Positions 877 to 63,785 of a DNA stretch of 64,000 bases are shown in pieces (position 1 is the stretch's first letter; each line of letters starts with the position of its first letter). The stretch is from assembly GCA_014803435.1 (NCBI GenBank), contig JACYFD010000003.1:248001-312000 (forward strand), in the 5' to 3' direction. Below the pieces are notes generated by a model. That model made no database searches and was not told the origin of the DNA. It saw only the letters and a program-made list of their open reading frames with translations. Both the position numbers and the translations under genes were made by a program. The DNA comes from Cellulosimicrobium terreum (GTDB taxonomy: Bacteria; Actinomycetota; Actinomycetes; Actinomycetales; Cellulomonadaceae).

Positions 877-2363
877 GCTCGCTCCTCCGTGCTCGTCTCC
901 TCGGCGCGGACGAGCGACAGGACGTCGTCGCGCACCTTCTCCATGATGTCCTGGTCGGCCGCCTCGACGTTGAGCCGCAGGAGCGGCTCGGTGTTGGACG
1001 CGCGCAGGTTGAACCACCACTGCGGGTGGGAGTCCCAGTGCGAGACGGTGAGGCCGTCCAGCTCGTCGACGTCGACGGGGCCTGCACCCTGCTGGGTCAC
1101 GTAAGCCTCCTCGACGCGCTCGCGCGCCGCCGCCACGTCGGGCACGGTCGAGTTGATCTCCCCCGACGCGACGTACGGCTCGTACATCTCCGCGACGTCG
1201 GACAGCGGGTGCGGCTGGCCTCCCAGCGCCGCGAGCACGTGCATCGCGGCGAGCATGCCGGTGTCCGCGAAGAAGAAGTCGCGGAAGTAGTAGTGCGCGC
1301 TGTGCTCGCCTCCGAACACGGCGTCGTTCTCCGCCATCTGCGCCTTGATGAACGAGTGTCCGACTCGCGTGCGCACGGCATGTGCGCCGGCCGCGGTGAG
1401 GAAGTCCGGCACAGCGCGCGACGTGATGAGGTTGTGGATGACCGTCGGCGTGCGACCCTCGGCCTTCTCCTTCTCGACCTCACGCAGCCCCACCAGTGCG
1501 GTGATCGCCGACGGCGAGACCGGGTCGCCGTGCTCGTCGACGACGAAGCAGCGGTCCGCGTCGCCGTCGAACGCGAGGCCCAGGTCGGCGTCGTGCTCCA
1601 CGACGGCTGCCCGCAGGTCCTCCAGGTTCTTCGGGTCGAGCGGGTTGGCCTCGTGGTTCGGGAACGTGCCGTCGAGCTCGAAGTACAGCGGTACGACGTC
1701 GAGCGGCAGGGCCGGCAGCCCGGCCGCCGTGCCGAGGACGGCGGGGACCGTGAACCCTCCCATGCCGTTGCCGGCGTCGACGACGACCTTGAGCGGGCGG
1801 ATCCCCGACAGGTCGACGAGCGAGCGCAGGAAGTCGGCGTAGGCGGGGAGCGTGTCGCGGTCGGTGATCGTCCCGGGCTCGTCGACAGGGGTGGGCAGCC
1901 CGTCGTCGATGTACCCCTCAGCGAGCCGTCGGACCTCGGCGAGCCCGGAGTCCTGCCCGACGGGCCGGGCGCCCGCACGGCAGAGCTTGATGCCGTTGTA
2001 GGCGGCAGGGTTGTGGCTGGCGGTGAACATCGCACCAGGAACCCCGAGGATCCCGGACGCGTGGTAGAGCCCGTCGGTCGAGCAGAGGCCGATGCGCACG
2101 ACGTCCACGCCCGCGTCCGCGAGGCCGGCCGCGAACGCGTCCACGAGCCCTGGGCCGGAGTCGCGCATGTCGTGCCCGACGACGGCACGCGGGCCAGCAT
2201 CCGGACCAGGCGGGACGTCGTCGTCCCCGGCGGGTACCTCACGCAGCACGACGGCGCGCGCGAACGCGGCGCCGATCGCCCTCGTCACCTCCGCGTCGAG
2301 CTGGTCCGGGACGGTGCCGCGCACGTCGTAGGCCTTGATCAGGTGGGAGAGGTCGGTGCTCAC
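873..2363 (-). CDS. manB: Phosphomannomutase/phosphoglucomutase
   Basis: A 496-residue alpha-D-phosphohexomutase interconverting hexose 6-phosphate and 1-phosphate, feeding GDP-mannose or glucose-1-phosphate for envelope sugars. Visible landmarks in order: KAYDVRGTVP at residue 10, the phosphoserine loop TASHNPAAYNG with Ser116, the metal loop FDGDADRCF near 275, the sugar-binding segment GGEHSAHYYFRD, and the C-terminal phosphate loop RASNTEPLLRL. All are intact. The GTG start at 2363 lies 6 nt after a TAGGCT hexamer (2370-2375), the pattern of a leaderless actinobacterial promoter. Specificity between mannose and glucose cannot be read from sequence. In M. tuberculosis the equivalent position is, from memory, Rv3257c. 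Confidence 0.93.
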   Translation of the reverse strand: MSTDLSHLIKAYDVRGTVPDQLDAEVTRAIGAAFARAVVLREVPAGDDDVPPGPDAGPRAVVGHDMRDSGPGLVDAFAAGLADAGVDVVRIGLCSTDGLYHASGILGVPGAMFTASHNPAAYNGIKLCRAGARPVGQDSGLAEVRRLAEGYIDDGLPTPVDEPGTITDRDTLPAYADFLRSLVDLSGIRPLKVVVDAGNGMGGFTVPAVLGTAAGLPALPLDVVPLYFELDGTFPNHEANPLDPKNLEDLRAAVVEHDADLGLAFDGDADRCFVVDEHGDPVSPSAITALVGLREVEKEKAEGRTPTVIHNLITSRAVPDFLTAAGAHAVRTRVGHSFIKAQMAENDAVFGGEHSAHYYFRDFFFADTGMLAAMHVLAALGGQPHPLSDVAEMYEPYVASGEINSTVPDVAAARERVEEAYVTQQGAGPVDVDELDGLTVSHWDSHPQWWFNLRASNTEPLLRLNVEAADQDIMEKVRDDVLSLVRAEETSTEERA

Positions 2364-47597: not shown

Positions 47598-50500
47598 TCA
47601 GCGGCGGACGTGGCCGTAGCGGTGCGTCGTGCGGCTCACGGCCTGCTCGCGCAGGACGGTGAGCAGCTCGCGGCGTGCGCTCGCGACCACGGGGTGGTCG
47701 AGGACCGTCAGGATCCCCACGCGCTCCGCCGCGGCCTCGTGCAGCCCGGGAGCCGAGCCGACGACGCGCAGCCGCCCGCGGACCCGCCCCGCGGCGACCT
47801 GCCGGGCGAGGTCCTCGTCGGTCACCGCCGTCCCGTCCGTCGCCCCGGGTGCACCGGGGGCGGGCAGCACCACGACGGGCACCCCGACGGTCCGTGCGGC
47901 GTGCAGCACGCGCTCGACCTCGACGGCCGACGCGTCGGTGCCGACACGCACGGTGAGGAGGTCGACCGGACGGTAGCGGAACACGTTCGACTCGGCCTGC
48001 AGACCCGACAGGTCGTGGTCCTGGGAGAGCTCGCGCTCCCACACCCGCGCGTCGTCGGCCACGGCCCACGCGAGCCAGGCGTCGGAGGCGCTCTCGCGCG
48101 CGGGCGGCCCGTCCGGCGCGTCGGACCAGCGCCCGAGCTGGGCGACGTAGCTCGGCCCGCCGGCCTTCGCCCCGGGACCGACGGCCGACTGCTTCCAGCC
48201 GCCGAACGACTGGCGCTGCACGATCGCACCCGTGATGTGCCGGTTGACGTACGCGTTGCCCACCTCGACGGCGTCGAGCCAGCGCGCGACCTCGCCGTCG
48301 TCGAGGCTGTGGATGCCGCCCGTGAGGCCGAACGGCACGGCGTTCTGCAGCGCGACCGCCTCGTCGAGAGTCGCCGCCGTCATGATGCCGAGCACGGGGC
48401 CGAAGCACTCGGTGAGGTGGAACGTCGAGCCGGGTCGGACGCCCTCCTTGAGACCCGGTGTCCACAGCCGGCCACCGCCCGGACCCCCGTCGGTCCGGCC
48501 GTCCAGCCGGCGCGGCCGAACGAGCCACGACTCGCCCTCCTCCAGCGTCGTCAGGGCACGCAGGAGCTTGCCGGACGCGGCCTCCGTCAGCGGCCCCATG
48601 GTCGTCGACAGCTGCGTCGGCGGACCGACCGCGAGCGAGCGCACGGCGTCGACGAGCTGGCGTCGCACGCGCCGTCCCGTCTCGGTCCGGGGATCCCCGG
48701 CGGACCCCACGAGGATCACGAGCGACGCGGCGGAGCACTTCTGCCCGGCGTGCCCGAACGCGGACCGGACGAGGTCGGCGACCGCCAGGTCGAGGTCCGC
48801 GGCGGGCGTCACGACGAGCGCGTTCTTGCCCGAGGTCTCCGCGAGCACGGGACGCCCCGGCTTCCACCGCGCGAAGAGCCGGGCGGTCTCGATCGAGCCG
48901 GTGAGCACGACGCGCGCGACTCCGTCGTGCGTGACGAGCCGCTCGCCGAGCTCGTCGTCGGGCACGCGCAGGAACTGCACGACGTCGGTCACCGCCGACC
49001 GGTCGTCACCGGCGTCGAGCCCGAGACCGGCCGCGGCGAACGGTCCCGGGTCCGCCGCGACAGCGTCGCGCAGGCCTGCGTGGATCGCGTCGACGGCGAC
49101 CTCGAGGCAGCGCGGGGTCGGCGGCGCGGGCTTCGCGAGGACGGCCGAGCCGGCCGCGAGCGCCGCGAGGACGCCGCCGACGGGGATGGCCACGGGGAAG
49201 TTCCAGGGCGGGGTGACGAGCGTGACGCCGTCGGGCGTGAAGCGCGCTCCGGGCCAGGCGGCCGACGCGGGGTCGAGCTCGTCCGCCCGGTCCGCGTAGT
49301 AGGCGGCGAAGTCGACGGCCTCGCTCACCTCGGGGTCGGCCTCGGCTACGGTCTTGCCCGGCTCGTGCACCATCGCGACGACCAGGTCGGTGCGCGCGGT
49401 CTCGAGCCGGTGCGCGACGGCGCGCAGCGCGGCGCCGCGCGCGACGGGGGCAACCCGCGACCAGGCTGCGGTGGCCCTCACGGCGCGCGTGACGGCGTCG
49501 TCCACCTGCGCGGCGGTGGTGAGCACGTCCGTGCGGACGGGCACGAACCCGCTGTCGGGCCCGGTCACGTGCAGCGCCCACGACCGGGAGGCGGCGACGG
49601 CGGGATCGGTGTCGGGCACGTTGCCGAACCCCGGGTTGTGCCCCGTTGCGCCCTTCGATCGGGGCGTAACCCGGGGGTCGGCGGGCGAACCGGGCCCGAC
49701 GGCGGGCAAACCGGGCCTGTCCGCAGGGGCGGCGTCAGCCCGGGGCCGGCGGCGCGGTGTCACGGCGGCGGGCGGGTAGTCGACGCCGAGGAGCACCGAC
49801 GCGCGGAACGCGGCCTCCTGCCGGCTCATCGCGCTGCCCGTCGCGGCGACGGCCGGTGCGTCTGAGTCGGGCACGTCGGGGGCGAACATCGCGTGCAGGA
49901 AGTTCTGTTCCGCGGCGTTCTCCTCGAGCCGGCGGACGAGGTAGGAGATCGCGACGTCGAAGTCCTCGTCGCGCACGACGGGCGTGTACAGCACGACGCG
50001 CCCGCCCCTCCCGACGTGCGGACCGGTGTCCACCCGATCACGGGCGACCTCGTCGCGCACGGCGCGCGCCTCGCCCGGCGCCATGCCCTGGAGCATCTCG
50101 ACGTCGAGCGCGTGGCTCACGCCGCGTTCCCGACCGAGCAGCACGGCGAGCGCGACGTGGAAGAGGTTGTGGCTCGCGACGCCGATGCGCACGGCGTCGG
50201 TACGCGGCGCGCGCAGCGCGTGGTCGAGCAGGCGCACATAGTTGGCGTCGACGTCGGGCTTCGTCGGGTACGGCGCCTGCGGCCACCCGTGGAGCTCGGC
50301 CTCGACGGCCTCCATGGCGAGGTTGGCGCCCTTGACGAGCCGCACCTTGATGGGCGCTCCCCCGGCGGCGACGCGCTCGGTCGCGAAGGCGGTGAGCCCG
50401 TCGAGCGCCCCGAGCGCGTCCGGCAGGTAGGCCTGGAGCACGATCCCGGCCTCCAGGTCGCGGAGCTCGTCGTGCGCGAGGACCGCGCGGAACACCTCCG

Positions 50501-51260
50501 TGGTGAGGGCGAGGTCGTGGTACTCCTCCATGTCGAGGTTGAGGAAGACGCCGTGGTCCCGCGCCGCGCGGTACAGGGGCAGCAGCCGCTCGACGACCCG
50601 GTCGCGCGACCCCTCCAGGTCCCACGGGACGAGCTGGGACGCGACGGACGACACCTTGACCGACACGTAGTCGACGTCGGGCCGCTCCACGAGGGCGATC
50701 GTGCGCTCGAGCCGCGCGTTCGCCTCGTCCTCGCCGAGCACCGCCTCGCCGAGCAGGTTCACGTTGAGCGCGTACCCCTCGGCCCGCGTGCGCGCGAGGT
50801 GCGGGCCGAGGCCCGGGCCGGCGTCGGCCACGAGGTGCCCCACGAGCTGGCGCAGCCGCAGGCGGGCCGCGGGCACGACGACGGACGGCAGCACGGGCGC
50901 GACCCGTGCCCCGAGCCCGAGCAGCCCGCGGTCCACCGGGCCGAGGAACCCGCCCGCGCCGCCGGCGAGGGCGCCCAGCCGTCCCAGCGCCCGGGCCGCG
51001 ACGCCCGTGTCCCGGGGCCGCGCGACGTCGTCCACGAACCGCACCGCGAGCTCGAGCCCGTCAGGGTCGGAGACCAGCGCGCCCAGCCGTTCGGCGGTGC
51101 GGCGCTCCCGTGCCTCGGCACGTGCGCCGCCGATGGCGCCGCTGGGGCCGTCGCTCGAGCCGTCGCTGCCCGCGAGCCAGCGACGGGCCAGGGTGACGGC
51201 CTCCTCGACGAGGTCGGTGGGTCCGGGGTGCGCGGGGGTGGTGCGCGGGTGGTCGCTCAT
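47598..51260 (-). CDS. putA: Bifunctional proline dehydrogenase / L-glutamate gamma-semialdehyde dehydrogenase
   Basis: A 1220-residue enzyme oxidising proline to glutamate. The proline dehydrogenase barrel spans about 80-480 (YVSVKVSSVASQLVPWD; FLNLDMEEYHDLALT; VRLVKGANLAMEAVEAELHGW). A linker of about 60 residues follows, then the aldehyde dehydrogenase domain (about 550-1070) with VTPPWNFPVAIPVGG, ETSGKNALVV and the nucleophile Cys in FGHAGQKCSAASL. The linker contains a 20-residue segment (about 527-546) encoded by a dispersed 60-bp palindrome inserted in frame at 49623-49682. No N-terminal DNA-binding domain is present, so it is not the trifunctional form. ATG at 51260 is the start. Downstream gdhA would take the glutamate made. 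Confidence 0.94.
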   Translation of the reverse strand: MSDHPRTTPAHPGPTDLVEEAVTLARRWLAGSDGSSDGPSGAIGGARAEARERRTAERLGALVSDPDGLELAVRFVDDVARPRDTGVAARALGRLGALAGGAGGFLGPVDRGLLGLGARVAPVLPSVVVPAARLRLRQLVGHLVADAGPGLGPHLARTRAEGYALNVNLLGEAVLGEDEANARLERTIALVERPDVDYVSVKVSSVASQLVPWDLEGSRDRVVERLLPLYRAARDHGVFLNLDMEEYHDLALTTEVFRAVLAHDELRDLEAGIVLQAYLPDALGALDGLTAFATERVAAGGAPIKVRLVKGANLAMEAVEAELHGWPQAPYPTKPDVDANYVRLLDHALRAPRTDAVRIGVASHNLFHVALAVLLGRERGVSHALDVEMLQGMAPGEARAVRDEVARDRVDTGPHVGRGGRVVLYTPVVRDEDFDVAISYLVRRLEENAAEQNFLHAMFAPDVPDSDAPAVAATGSAMSRQEAAFRASVLLGVDYPPAAVTPRRRPRADAAPADRPGLPAVGPGSPADPRVTPRSKGATGHNPGFGNVPDTDPAVAASRSWALHVTGPDSGFVPVRTDVLTTAAQVDDAVTRAVRATAAWSRVAPVARGAALRAVAHRLETARTDLVVAMVHEPGKTVAEADPEVSEAVDFAAYYADRADELDPASAAWPGARFTPDGVTLVTPPWNFPVAIPVGGVLAALAAGSAVLAKPAPPTPRCLEVAVDAIHAGLRDAVAADPGPFAAAGLGLDAGDDRSAVTDVVQFLRVPDDELGERLVTHDGVARVVLTGSIETARLFARWKPGRPVLAETSGKNALVVTPAADLDLAVADLVRSAFGHAGQKCSAASLVILVGSAGDPRTETGRRVRRQLVDAVRSLAVGPPTQLSTTMGPLTEAASGKLLRALTTLEEGESWLVRPRRLDGRTDGGPGGGRLWTPGLKEGVRPGSTFHLTECFGPVLGIMTAATLDEAVALQNAVPFGLTGGIHSLDDGEVARWLDAVEVGNAYVNRHITGAIVQRQSFGGWKQSAVGPGAKAGGPSYVAQLGRWSDAPDGPPARESASDAWLAWAVADDARVWERELSQDHDLSGLQAESNVFRYRPVDLLTVRVGTDASAVEVERVLHAARTVGVPVVVLPAPGAPGATDGTAVTDEDLARQVAAGRVRGRLRVVGSAPGLHEAAAERVGILTVLDHPVVASARRELLTVLREQAVSRTTHRYGHVRR
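49623..49682. repeat. Dispersed palindrome (family 1), in-frame copy inside putA
   Basis: The plus strand reads GCCGAACCCCGGGTT ... AACCCGGGGGTCGGC, a 15-bp imperfect inverted repeat with inner CCCCG/CGGGG arms. The element is 60 bp, so putA stays open across it. The same outer arms occur at 63725-63784, in non-coding DNA. Confidence 0.8.
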
Positions 51261-51298
51261 CGCACCAGCCTGCCTCGGGTCGCGCACCTCCACGAGTT

Positions 51299-61809: not shown

Positions 61810-63495
61810 TCACAGCCGGAGCCAGACCGCGGAGTCGGTGGTGAGGCGCGCCGGTGCGCCCGCGTTCGGCTCGCTGTGCAGGAGGACCTTCGCGTCCTCC
61901 GGGAGCACGACGTCCTCGCCGCCGAGGTCGACGACGCACGCGACGTCGCCGCGTGCGAAGGCGAGCACGTCGTCGCCGAGCGGGACCCCGGCGAGCGAGT
62001 CGAGCCAGCGCAGCGGCTCGCCGTGCAGCGCCGGCTCGGCGCGACGGACCGCGAGCACGCGCCGGTAGAGCGCGAGCATCGACGCGTCGTCCCCGGCCTG
62101 CGCCTCGACGGACTGCTCGCCCCACCCGGCCGGCTGGGGCAGCCAGGGTGCGGCACCGTCGTCGGGTCCGAACCCGAACGTCGCGCCGGTGCGCGACCAC
62201 GGGAGCGGGACGCGACAGCCGTCGCGCCCTGGGTCGACACCGCCCGAGCGGAAGTGCATGGGGTCCTGGATGGCGCCCGCCGGCAGGTCCTCGACCTCGG
62301 GCAGGCCGAGCTCGTCGCCCTGGTAGAGGTAGAGCGAGCCGGGCAGCGCGGCCGTGAGCAGCGCCGCGGCACGCGCACGACGCCGGCCGGTGGCCAGGTT
62401 CGTCGGCGTGCCGAAGCGCTTGCTGAGGAAGGCGAAGGAGCTGTCCTCGCGCCCGTAGCGCGTCACCGGGCGCGTGACGTCGTGGTTCGAGAGCACCCAG
62501 GTGGCAGGGGCGGAGACGGGTGCGTGCGCGTCGAGCGTCGTCTGGATCGACTCGCGGAGCGACTTCGCGTCCCACGGCCTGGCCATGAAGTCGAAGTTGA
62601 ACGCCGTGTGCATCTCGTCCGGACGGAGGTACTGGGCGAAGCGCGCGCGGTCGGCGAGCCAGACCTCCCCGACGAGCACGCGTGGCTCGTCGTACGACTC
62701 GGCGACGGCACGCCACGAGCGGTAGATGTCGTGGATCTCGTCGCGGTCGACGTGCGGGTGGTCCCCTGGGCCCGGGTGCGCGGGCACCTCGGGGAGCTCC
62801 GGGTCCTTGACGAGCAGGGCGGCGGAGTCGATCCGGATGCCGGCGGCACCGCGGTCGAACCAGAACCGCAGGATCTCCTCGTGCTCGCGCCGCACGTCGG
62901 GGTGGGTCCAGTTGAGGTCCGGCTGCTCCGGCGTGAACAGGTGCAGGTACCACTCGCCGGGCGTGCCGTCGGGGTCCGTCGTGCGGGTCCACGTGGTGCC
63001 CTGGAAGTCGGAGACCCAGCCGGTCGGCATCTCGGCGCCGTCCGTCCCCCGGCCGGGGTGGAACCAGAAGCGCTCGCGCTCGGGCGAGCCGGCACCGGCG
63101 GCGAGGGCGGCGCGGAACCACTCGTGCTCCGCCGACACGTGGTTGGGGACGACGTCGATGATGGTGCGGATCCCCAGGTCACGGGCCTCCGCGATGAGCG
63201 CCTCGGCCTCCGCGAGGGTGCCGAACTGCGGGTCGATCGCGCGGTAGTCGGCGACGTCGTACCCGCCGTCGGCCAGCGGGGAGAGGTACCACGGCGTGAA
63301 CCAGATGGCGTCGATCCCGAGGTCGCGCAGGTAGGGCAGACGCGCGCGCACCCCGGCCAGGTCGCCGGTCCCGTCGCCGTCGCCGTCGGCGAAGCTGCGG
63401 ACGTAGACCTGGTAGATCACCGCGTCGCGCCACCACTCGGGCCCGGCCGGGGGCGTCGCCGCACCAGCGGCGGTCTCGGGGCGATCGTTGCTCAC
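61810..63495 (-). CDS. Family GH13 alpha-glucosidase
   Basis: A 561-residue cytoplasmic glycoside hydrolase. Conserved regions in order: WWRDAVIYQVYVRSFADGDGDG, LGIDAIWFTPWYLSP, region I DVVPNHVS, region II GIRIDSAALL with the Asp nucleophile, region III VLVGEVWLAD with the Glu acid/base, and region IV VLSNHDVTRP. It likely cleaves imported maltose, isomaltose or related alpha-glucosides. It is the first gene of the leftward operon with the binding protein and two permeases. GTG at 63495 is preceded by GAGGAAGAGGA. A LacI regulator gene lies just upstream. Confidence 0.94.
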   Translation of the reverse strand: MSNDRPETAAGAATPPAGPEWWRDAVIYQVYVRSFADGDGDGTGDLAGVRARLPYLRDLGIDAIWFTPWYLSPLADGGYDVADYRAIDPQFGTLAEAEALIAEARDLGIRTIIDVVPNHVSAEHEWFRAALAAGAGSPERERFWFHPGRGTDGAEMPTGWVSDFQGTTWTRTTDPDGTPGEWYLHLFTPEQPDLNWTHPDVRREHEEILRFWFDRGAAGIRIDSAALLVKDPELPEVPAHPGPGDHPHVDRDEIHDIYRSWRAVAESYDEPRVLVGEVWLADRARFAQYLRPDEMHTAFNFDFMARPWDAKSLRESIQTTLDAHAPVSAPATWVLSNHDVTRPVTRYGREDSSFAFLSKRFGTPTNLATGRRRARAAALLTAALPGSLYLYQGDELGLPEVEDLPAGAIQDPMHFRSGGVDPGRDGCRVPLPWSRTGATFGFGPDDGAAPWLPQPAGWGEQSVEAQAGDDASMLALYRRVLAVRRAEPALHGEPLRWLDSLAGVPLGDDVLAFARGDVACVVDLGGEDVVLPEDAKVLLHSEPNAGAPARLTTDSAVWLRL

Positions 63496-63723: not shown

Positions 63724-63785
63724 CGCCGAACCCCGGGTCGCCGCCCGTTCGACGTCGCGAACGGGCGGCTACCCGGGGTTCGGCG
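63724..63785. repeat. Dispersed palindrome (family 1), non-coding copy and likely terminator
   Basis: Outer arms GCCGAACCCCGGGT (63725-63738) and ACCCGGGGTTCGGC (63771-63784) pair perfectly; inner arms 63740-63751 and 63758-63769 add 12 bp, with the loop ACGTCG. It follows the stop of the LacI gene at 63818 and so may end that transcript. The outer arms match the element inside putA. Confidence 0.85.

Follow-up and report, generated by a model that had tools for sequence, protein, structure and literature searches.

A palindrome within the putA gene

The window analysed here, a 64,000-nucleotide stretch of the Cellulosimicrobium terreum genome, contains a putA gene (47598..51293, minus strand) whose 1231-residue product joins a proline dehydrogenase to an aldehyde dehydrogenase, and the linker between the two is partly encoded by a 60-bp palindromic element (49623..49682, minus strand in the reading of the gene). 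Rickettsia is the best-known home of in-frame palindromic elements. The locus raises the question of whether, as a reading of the sequence alone had proposed, a dispersed palindrome has entered coding sequence in an actinobacterium, or whether the hairpin serves the protein or its mRNA.

The element consists of an outer arm GCCGAACCCCGGGT (49623..49636, plus strand), a variable core of 32 bp that forms the inner stem and the loop (49637..49668, without assigned strand) and a second outer arm ACCCGGGGGTCGGC (49669..49682, plus strand), which departs from the consensus by one mismatch (T>G) and not by the gap drawn in the sequence-only reading. With the outer Y and R bases of most copies (YGCC...GGCR) the unit extends to 62 bp (49622..49683, unstranded). 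Because putA lies on the minus strand, the element reads ADPRVTPRSKGATGHNPGFG in this gene, in frame and exactly 20 codons long as had been claimed, and encodes residues 538–557. This segment is Pro/Gly-rich as described but contains a single Lys. It lies between both enzyme domains (Pfam matches at residues 166–467 for proline dehydrogenase and 592–1046 for aldehyde dehydrogenase) and ends two residues before a conserved PDT stretch, not at the start of the Pfam aldehyde dehydrogenase match.

A second copy in the window (63725..63784, unstranded), whose arms and coordinates agree with the earlier description, is an intergenic, near-perfect hairpin located between minus-strand genes called at 61810–63495 and from 63818. 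Both copies fold far better than shuffled sequences on either strand (z = −4.9/−5.3 for the putA copy).

A dispersed family of fixed length

Searches of the whole C. terreum genome (4.49 Mb) recovered 74 occurrences of the 11-base arm core and, with up to 3 mismatches, 47 places at which both arms stand at exactly 32 bp spacing, against 0 for the reversed control. When the spacer was left free between 10 and 60 bp (≤2 mismatches), 43 of 46 arm pairs in the fetched C. terreum loci, most of which had been picked by one arm or by both, still had a 32-bp spacer. The hairpin z scores, the 47 copies against none in the control and the nearly constant spacing place the element far beyond chance, and the arms are thus repeated genome-wide. 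The consensus starts with YGCCGAACCCCGGGTTGC... and ends with ...GCAACCCGGGGTTCGGCR; its outermost Y and R are common as classes of base and are unpaired in 14 of 56 aligned copies (50 from C. terreum and 6 from a second species, G113).

The arms are mostly uniform inside one genome and differ between species. The C. terreum-type pattern was matched in 15 of 17 genomes of the genus, with 1 to 47 copies each, and in 5 of 204 other genomes of the family. Many sister species carry CCGAACCCGGGGT...ACCCCGGGTTCGG arms, which amounts to a change on both arms, and some of them also hold a few copies of the C. terreum type. In G118, G119, G120 and G177 there are hairpins, about as long, whose arms read GCCGAGCACGGGGTT or nearly so. 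The uniformity is imperfect: G113 also has a copy with C. terreum-type arms, and some copies in the 2-oxoacid dehydrogenase E2 genes of C. terreum and G121 combine one arm of each version.

A covariance model matched at least 50 of 220 other family genomes at E ≤ 1e-4, with at most 24 candidates scored per genome. Most of the 21 loci read from these matches (one excerpt, L215, missed its match), those of G118, G119, G120 and G177 among them, contain a hairpin of comparable size whose arms are different; we treat these as cousins or look-alikes of unproven homology. Similar-length hairpins with arms of their own (GCCGAGCACGGGG, GCCGAACACGGGC, GCCGAACCCGGGG/GCCGAACCCGAGG and GCCGAGACCCGGG) occur in other genera at loci L216, L220, L214 and L228 and are possibly parallel families. 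On C. terreum contig C7 (L042:1556-4398), five copies lie within 3 kb, two pairs of them near-tandem with 12-bp gaps.

Placement between and within genes

The genomic context was examined for 51 C. terreum copies (50 with ≤4 mismatches plus the putA copy) using gene calls from a codon-usage gene finder built for this analysis, not an annotation. Eleven copies fall in genes and 40 are intergenic, with 15 in convergent, 20 in tandem and 5 in divergent gaps; two of these intergenic copies extend some way into a called gene. Coding copies make up 11 of 51 where about 91% of sequence is coding. In 452 kb of C. terreum sequence the available room amounts to 2266 convergent, 12562 tandem and 9003 divergent placements, against which the intergenic copies are enriched in convergent and depleted in divergent gaps (p = 2e-9); the departure from the plain number of gaps is weaker (p = 0.03). 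Copies in tandem gaps lie a median of 20.5 nt after the stop codon versus 86 nt ahead of the next start codon (p = 0.001). G113 exhibits 14 convergent, 18 tandem, 8 divergent and 11 coding copies among the 51 placed out of 57 counted. A TPP riboswitch and a tRNA (L044:955-1083 and 1522-1595, minus strand) are located near a C. terreum copy at about 382 kb on contig C8.

The hosts of the 11 coding copies in C. terreum are PutA, 2-oxoacid dehydrogenase E2 (three copies), LutB, Hen1, an HpcH/HpaI lyase, an FAD oxidoreductase, an NrtR-like NUDIX regulator, a histidine kinase, whose status as a host hinges on the start codon chosen, and an FGE-sulfatase-domain protein. The reading frames of putA and the E2 gene are open, without stops. 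Ten of the 11 segments lie outside every Pfam match of their host (P = 6e-6 for 20 residues placed at random), and a hand-picked set of Pfam domains gives 11 of 11 (9e-7). The difference is due to the Hen1 copy, which lies between the Hen1_L match and the shorter methyltransferase matches yet falls inside a long PF13489 methyltransferase stretch (residues 250–480). A frame encoding A-x-P-R...P-G-x-G is used by 7 of the 11 coding copies in C. terreum and likewise by 7 of 11 in G113; in C. terreum this frame is the one least often open (55 of 102 strand readings). The four exceptions in C. terreum are the copies at the C-terminus of the NrtR-like protein, the N-terminus of the histidine kinase, the C-terminus of E2 and in the FGE-domain protein.

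Palindromy at the DNA or the RNA level

The stems covary, with a score of 0.203 compared to 0.116 in shuffles (0 of 500), and pairing drops from 86.5% to 52% or less when the partner is slid; pairs changed on both sides number 14 versus 12.0 in shuffles (90 of 500) and are therefore not above shuffles, and one inner stem position is paired in little over half of the copies. If RNA folding is under selection, G.U pairs are expected above A.C mismatches on the sense strand. The observed G.U:A.C ratio was 35:34 in the tandem and coding copies of C. terreum, 49:44 in G113 and 14:17 in the convergent copies of C. terreum. Outside the arms no T enrichment was found, T reaching at most 20% at each of the 25 positions with strands and contexts pooled. 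Intrinsic terminators, for which a hairpin followed by a U-run and a pairing constraint at the RNA level are diagnostic, are not indicated by this pooled T content and by G.U counts about equal to A.C. No Rfam family matched the element at gathering score in the seven loci searched. Since G.U shows no excess over A.C and no T-rich stretch lies outside the arms, the palindromy seems to be a property of the DNA that arises from copying, hairpin recognition or template switching.

The alternative that the family consists of functional RNA hairpins, acting as bidirectional transcription terminators or as stabilisers of mRNA 3′ ends with the coding copies as by-products of selected RNA folding, nevertheless accounts for several observations. 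Convergent gaps are enriched, stop codons are close, the near-perfect stems of some convergent copies would suit a terminator and the stems covary. In addition, by eye, the G113 gap syntenic to C. terreum position 382626 carries unrelated hairpins, and at G113 position 4035245 C. terreum carries another hairpin. Against these stand the G.U and T counts given above, the 11 of 51 copies inside genes in each of two species and the divergent gaps, which hold 5 copies in C. terreum and 8 in G113. We regard this alternative as unlikely, although less so than template switching in place, movement by a RAYT or a functional PutA segment. The narrower proposal of the sequence-only reading, an RNA structure that pauses translation between the PutA domains, finds no support: the G.U signature is missing, other host proteins carry copies at their termini as well as in linkers, and in 7 of 17 Cellulosimicrobium genomes the putA copy itself is missing or has decayed. 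At a G113 element site corresponding to about 386 kb on C. terreum contig C8 (L200), the C. terreum sequence shows, by eye, another hairpin, GATCCGCCCC...GGGGCGGATC, together with a brief run of N.

Different cores at shared sites

Comparison of G113 with G117 uncovered the most unusual feature of the family, which is the apparent replacement of cores at constant sites. A place in G117 could be paired with 34 of the 51 G113 copies, leaving 17 unpaired; this sample is not usable for counting empty sites because G117 was sampled in large part at places that hold copies of its own, and in a contiguous 400-kb stretch of G117 all five mapped G113 copies were occupied. The 700-bp flanks at the 34 sites are 86–96% identical. 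Core identity at these sites has two peaks, with 21 cores at ≥0.80 and 13 at ≤0.70, the latter corresponding to what non-orthologous cores show (mean 0.57, 95th percentile 0.73). At the 13 sites with differing cores, 15–24 of the 25 stem pairs are kept in both copies, with the exception of one G117 copy with 10, and a few of the G117 partners have degenerate arms with 3 to 5 mismatches.

We read these differing cores as probable replacement in place. The flanks within 30 bp of the replaced cores are less conserved in most cases, and some of the replacements could therefore be independent insertions into the same short gap; the cleanest sites are L253, with its left flank at 1.00, and the third copy in E2, with its right flank at 0.97. 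No clear donor for the replaced cores was found among the copies sampled, the best paralogue identities being 0.60–0.83 compared to null nearest-neighbour means of 0.67 and 0.70. Close paralogous cores do exist within C. terreum, where 6 of 51 copies have a partner at ≥0.9 identity against 0.32 expected. The core of the intergenic copy in the window (63725-63784) has a counterpart on contig C1 at 0.93 identity, in opposite orientation, which fits copying.

One tentative interpretation, which we hold to be possible but the less probable outcome, is that a dedicated recombination system, so far undescribed, swaps cores at fixed sites and uses the arms for recognition or crossover. The arm version and the active core type of each lineage would then overwrite older copies in place, including the in-frame copies in PutA and the E2 linkers, and protein linkers would be rewritten without a moving insertion.

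A second alternative dispenses with present mobility altogether and holds that the palindromes are old and that template switching between the arms during replication keeps them palindromic and reshuffles them where they stand. It would agree with covariation that lacks an RNA signature, and template switching is a published route to perfect stems and their upkeep, as described in an excerpt of PMC8794818. Taken alone, however, it does not yield about 50 copies with one arm sequence, and it explains neither the differences in arm version between species nor a core of another type at a shared site. We thus consider it improbable, somewhat more so than selected RNA hairpins.

A putatively mobile element and its relation to known systems

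The reading that we judge probable is that of a small dispersed palindromic DNA element, mobile or converting and comparable to the Rickettsia palindromic elements (RPEs), with about 50 copies in C. terreum that are tolerated where they are harmless. In the model we propose, a trans-acting recombination process would recognise the arms or the hairpin and spread or overwrite the element, which would insert or convert through its arms by means of a putative enzyme. Copies would persist, presumably close to neutrality, where the harm is small, that is, after stop codons and in flexible protein linkers or tails; the latter could tolerate them because a stop-free 60 bp adds just 20 codons. No transposase or recombinase linked to the element was found, viral contigs contained no exact match to the one pattern searched, and the open-licence literature, among the matches listed, held no description of the element in Cellulosimicrobium or its family.

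The element is RPE-like in its behaviour, as the sequence-only reading had suspected: dispersed palindromes occupy intergenic gaps and also stand in frame within genes unrelated to one another, where a tolerated peptide is added, and the tally that reading had called for gives 11 coding and 40 intergenic copies. It had not foreseen that the copies are mostly intergenic, that the cores differ wholly at many shared sites or that species differ in arm version. By length and ends the element is not an RPE. According to excerpts of the respective reports, RPEs measure 105–146 bp (PMC2229807) and end in CGTC (PMC3733652), whereas the units described here measure 60–62 bp and end in YGCCGAAC and GTTCGGCR, a distinction drawn from the RPE descriptions in those excerpts and not from direct sequences. 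The variable core, the arm versions that vary between species and the GC-rich actinobacterial host also set it apart.

REP and REPIN elements moved by a RAYT (Y1 HUH) transposase resemble the family in being short palindromes of high copy number with a bias to gene ends, behind genes, and two Xanthomonas species carry different REPs at about the same recB site (excerpt of PMC3733652). The consulted part of PMC12306157, which defines REPs, contains nothing on Cellulosimicrobium. The present units of 60 bp have conserved ends and a variable middle, no GTAG-type tag appears at the ends in the alignment, and about a fifth of the copies lie in genes. The transposase model PF01797 matched none of the 17 genomes of the genus at E ≤ 0.001 but 5 of 14 control genomes; movement by a RAYT is therefore very unlikely, and within the reach of the Pfam model we reject it for the current genomes, although a RAYT may have been present and lost.

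Bacterial MITEs (ERIC, BOX and others) are likewise small repeats, and in-frame fusions of MITEs with genes are known (PMC10969869, in part). Unlike these, the present element is palindromic along nearly its whole length, and no target-site duplication was found in the gaps, which were not alignable. Coding-compatible palindromes also occur in the mitochondria of Nematomorpha; there, according to an excerpt of PMC6649704, the arms encode conserved residues, whereas here the copies encode linkers or tails.

The family thus offers a fixed-length version of such elements in a GC-rich actinobacterium with sixteen sequenced relatives, in which sites, cores and arms each change at a pace of their own. 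Comparison alone can address by what route so small a palindrome becomes numerous where RAYT is lacking, what holds each genome largely to one arm sequence, and how insertions of this kind lengthen protein linkers. The family also serves as a warning that covarying stems need not imply a functional RNA.

The putA and E2 sites across the genus

Of the 17 Cellulosimicrobium genomes, 10 have a clear element in the putA linker, 3 a decayed one and 4 none, the distinction between clear and decayed being judged by reading. Outside the genus, none of the 33 PutA linkers that could be delimited (78 loci fetched) resembles the element, so that the 20 residues are missing from the delimited homologues of other genera, in line with the sequence-only reading. 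With the arms recurring genome-wide as well, neither of the two results that this reading had named as refuting it was obtained, and its proposal of a dispersed palindrome within actinobacterial coding sequence is supported. A conserved functional segment of PutA, acting as a spacer or a translation pause and resembling the other repeats incidentally, might be suggested by the recurrence in the same linker in 10 of 17 genomes but is contradicted by these absences and decayed copies and by arms common to about 50 other places, and we give it almost no credence. On our preferred reading of a small dispersed element, the PutA copy would be an old insertion that now forms extra linker with little or no function.

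The E2 acyltransferase gene exhibits a similar pattern, in that 7 of 10 genomes examined carry between one and three copies, at matching linkers or the tail, and G118, G119 and G120 none; G110, which yielded a paralogue only, was left out of this comparison. The gene (L031:1757-3328, L246:1249-3006 and L316:1299-3032) carries up to three copies, in two linkers and in the C-terminal tail, with cores that vary between species. Flank identity is 90–94% between G113 and G120 (three sites) and 74–91% between C. terreum and G113 (five sites). These values suggest that sites common to C. terreum and G113 and missing in G120 would reflect either an ancestral insertion that was later lost or the same soft linkers having received insertions more than once. 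The gaps between C. terreum and both G120 and G113 could not be aligned base by base, and this comparison yielded no clean empty site and no target-site duplication. Two records named Cellulosimicrobium funkei, JCM 14302 (L055) and U11 (L062), differ in the putA linker, the element being absent from the former and present in the latter, and G120, which was matched to JCM 14302, has other element arms; one of the two names may be wrong.
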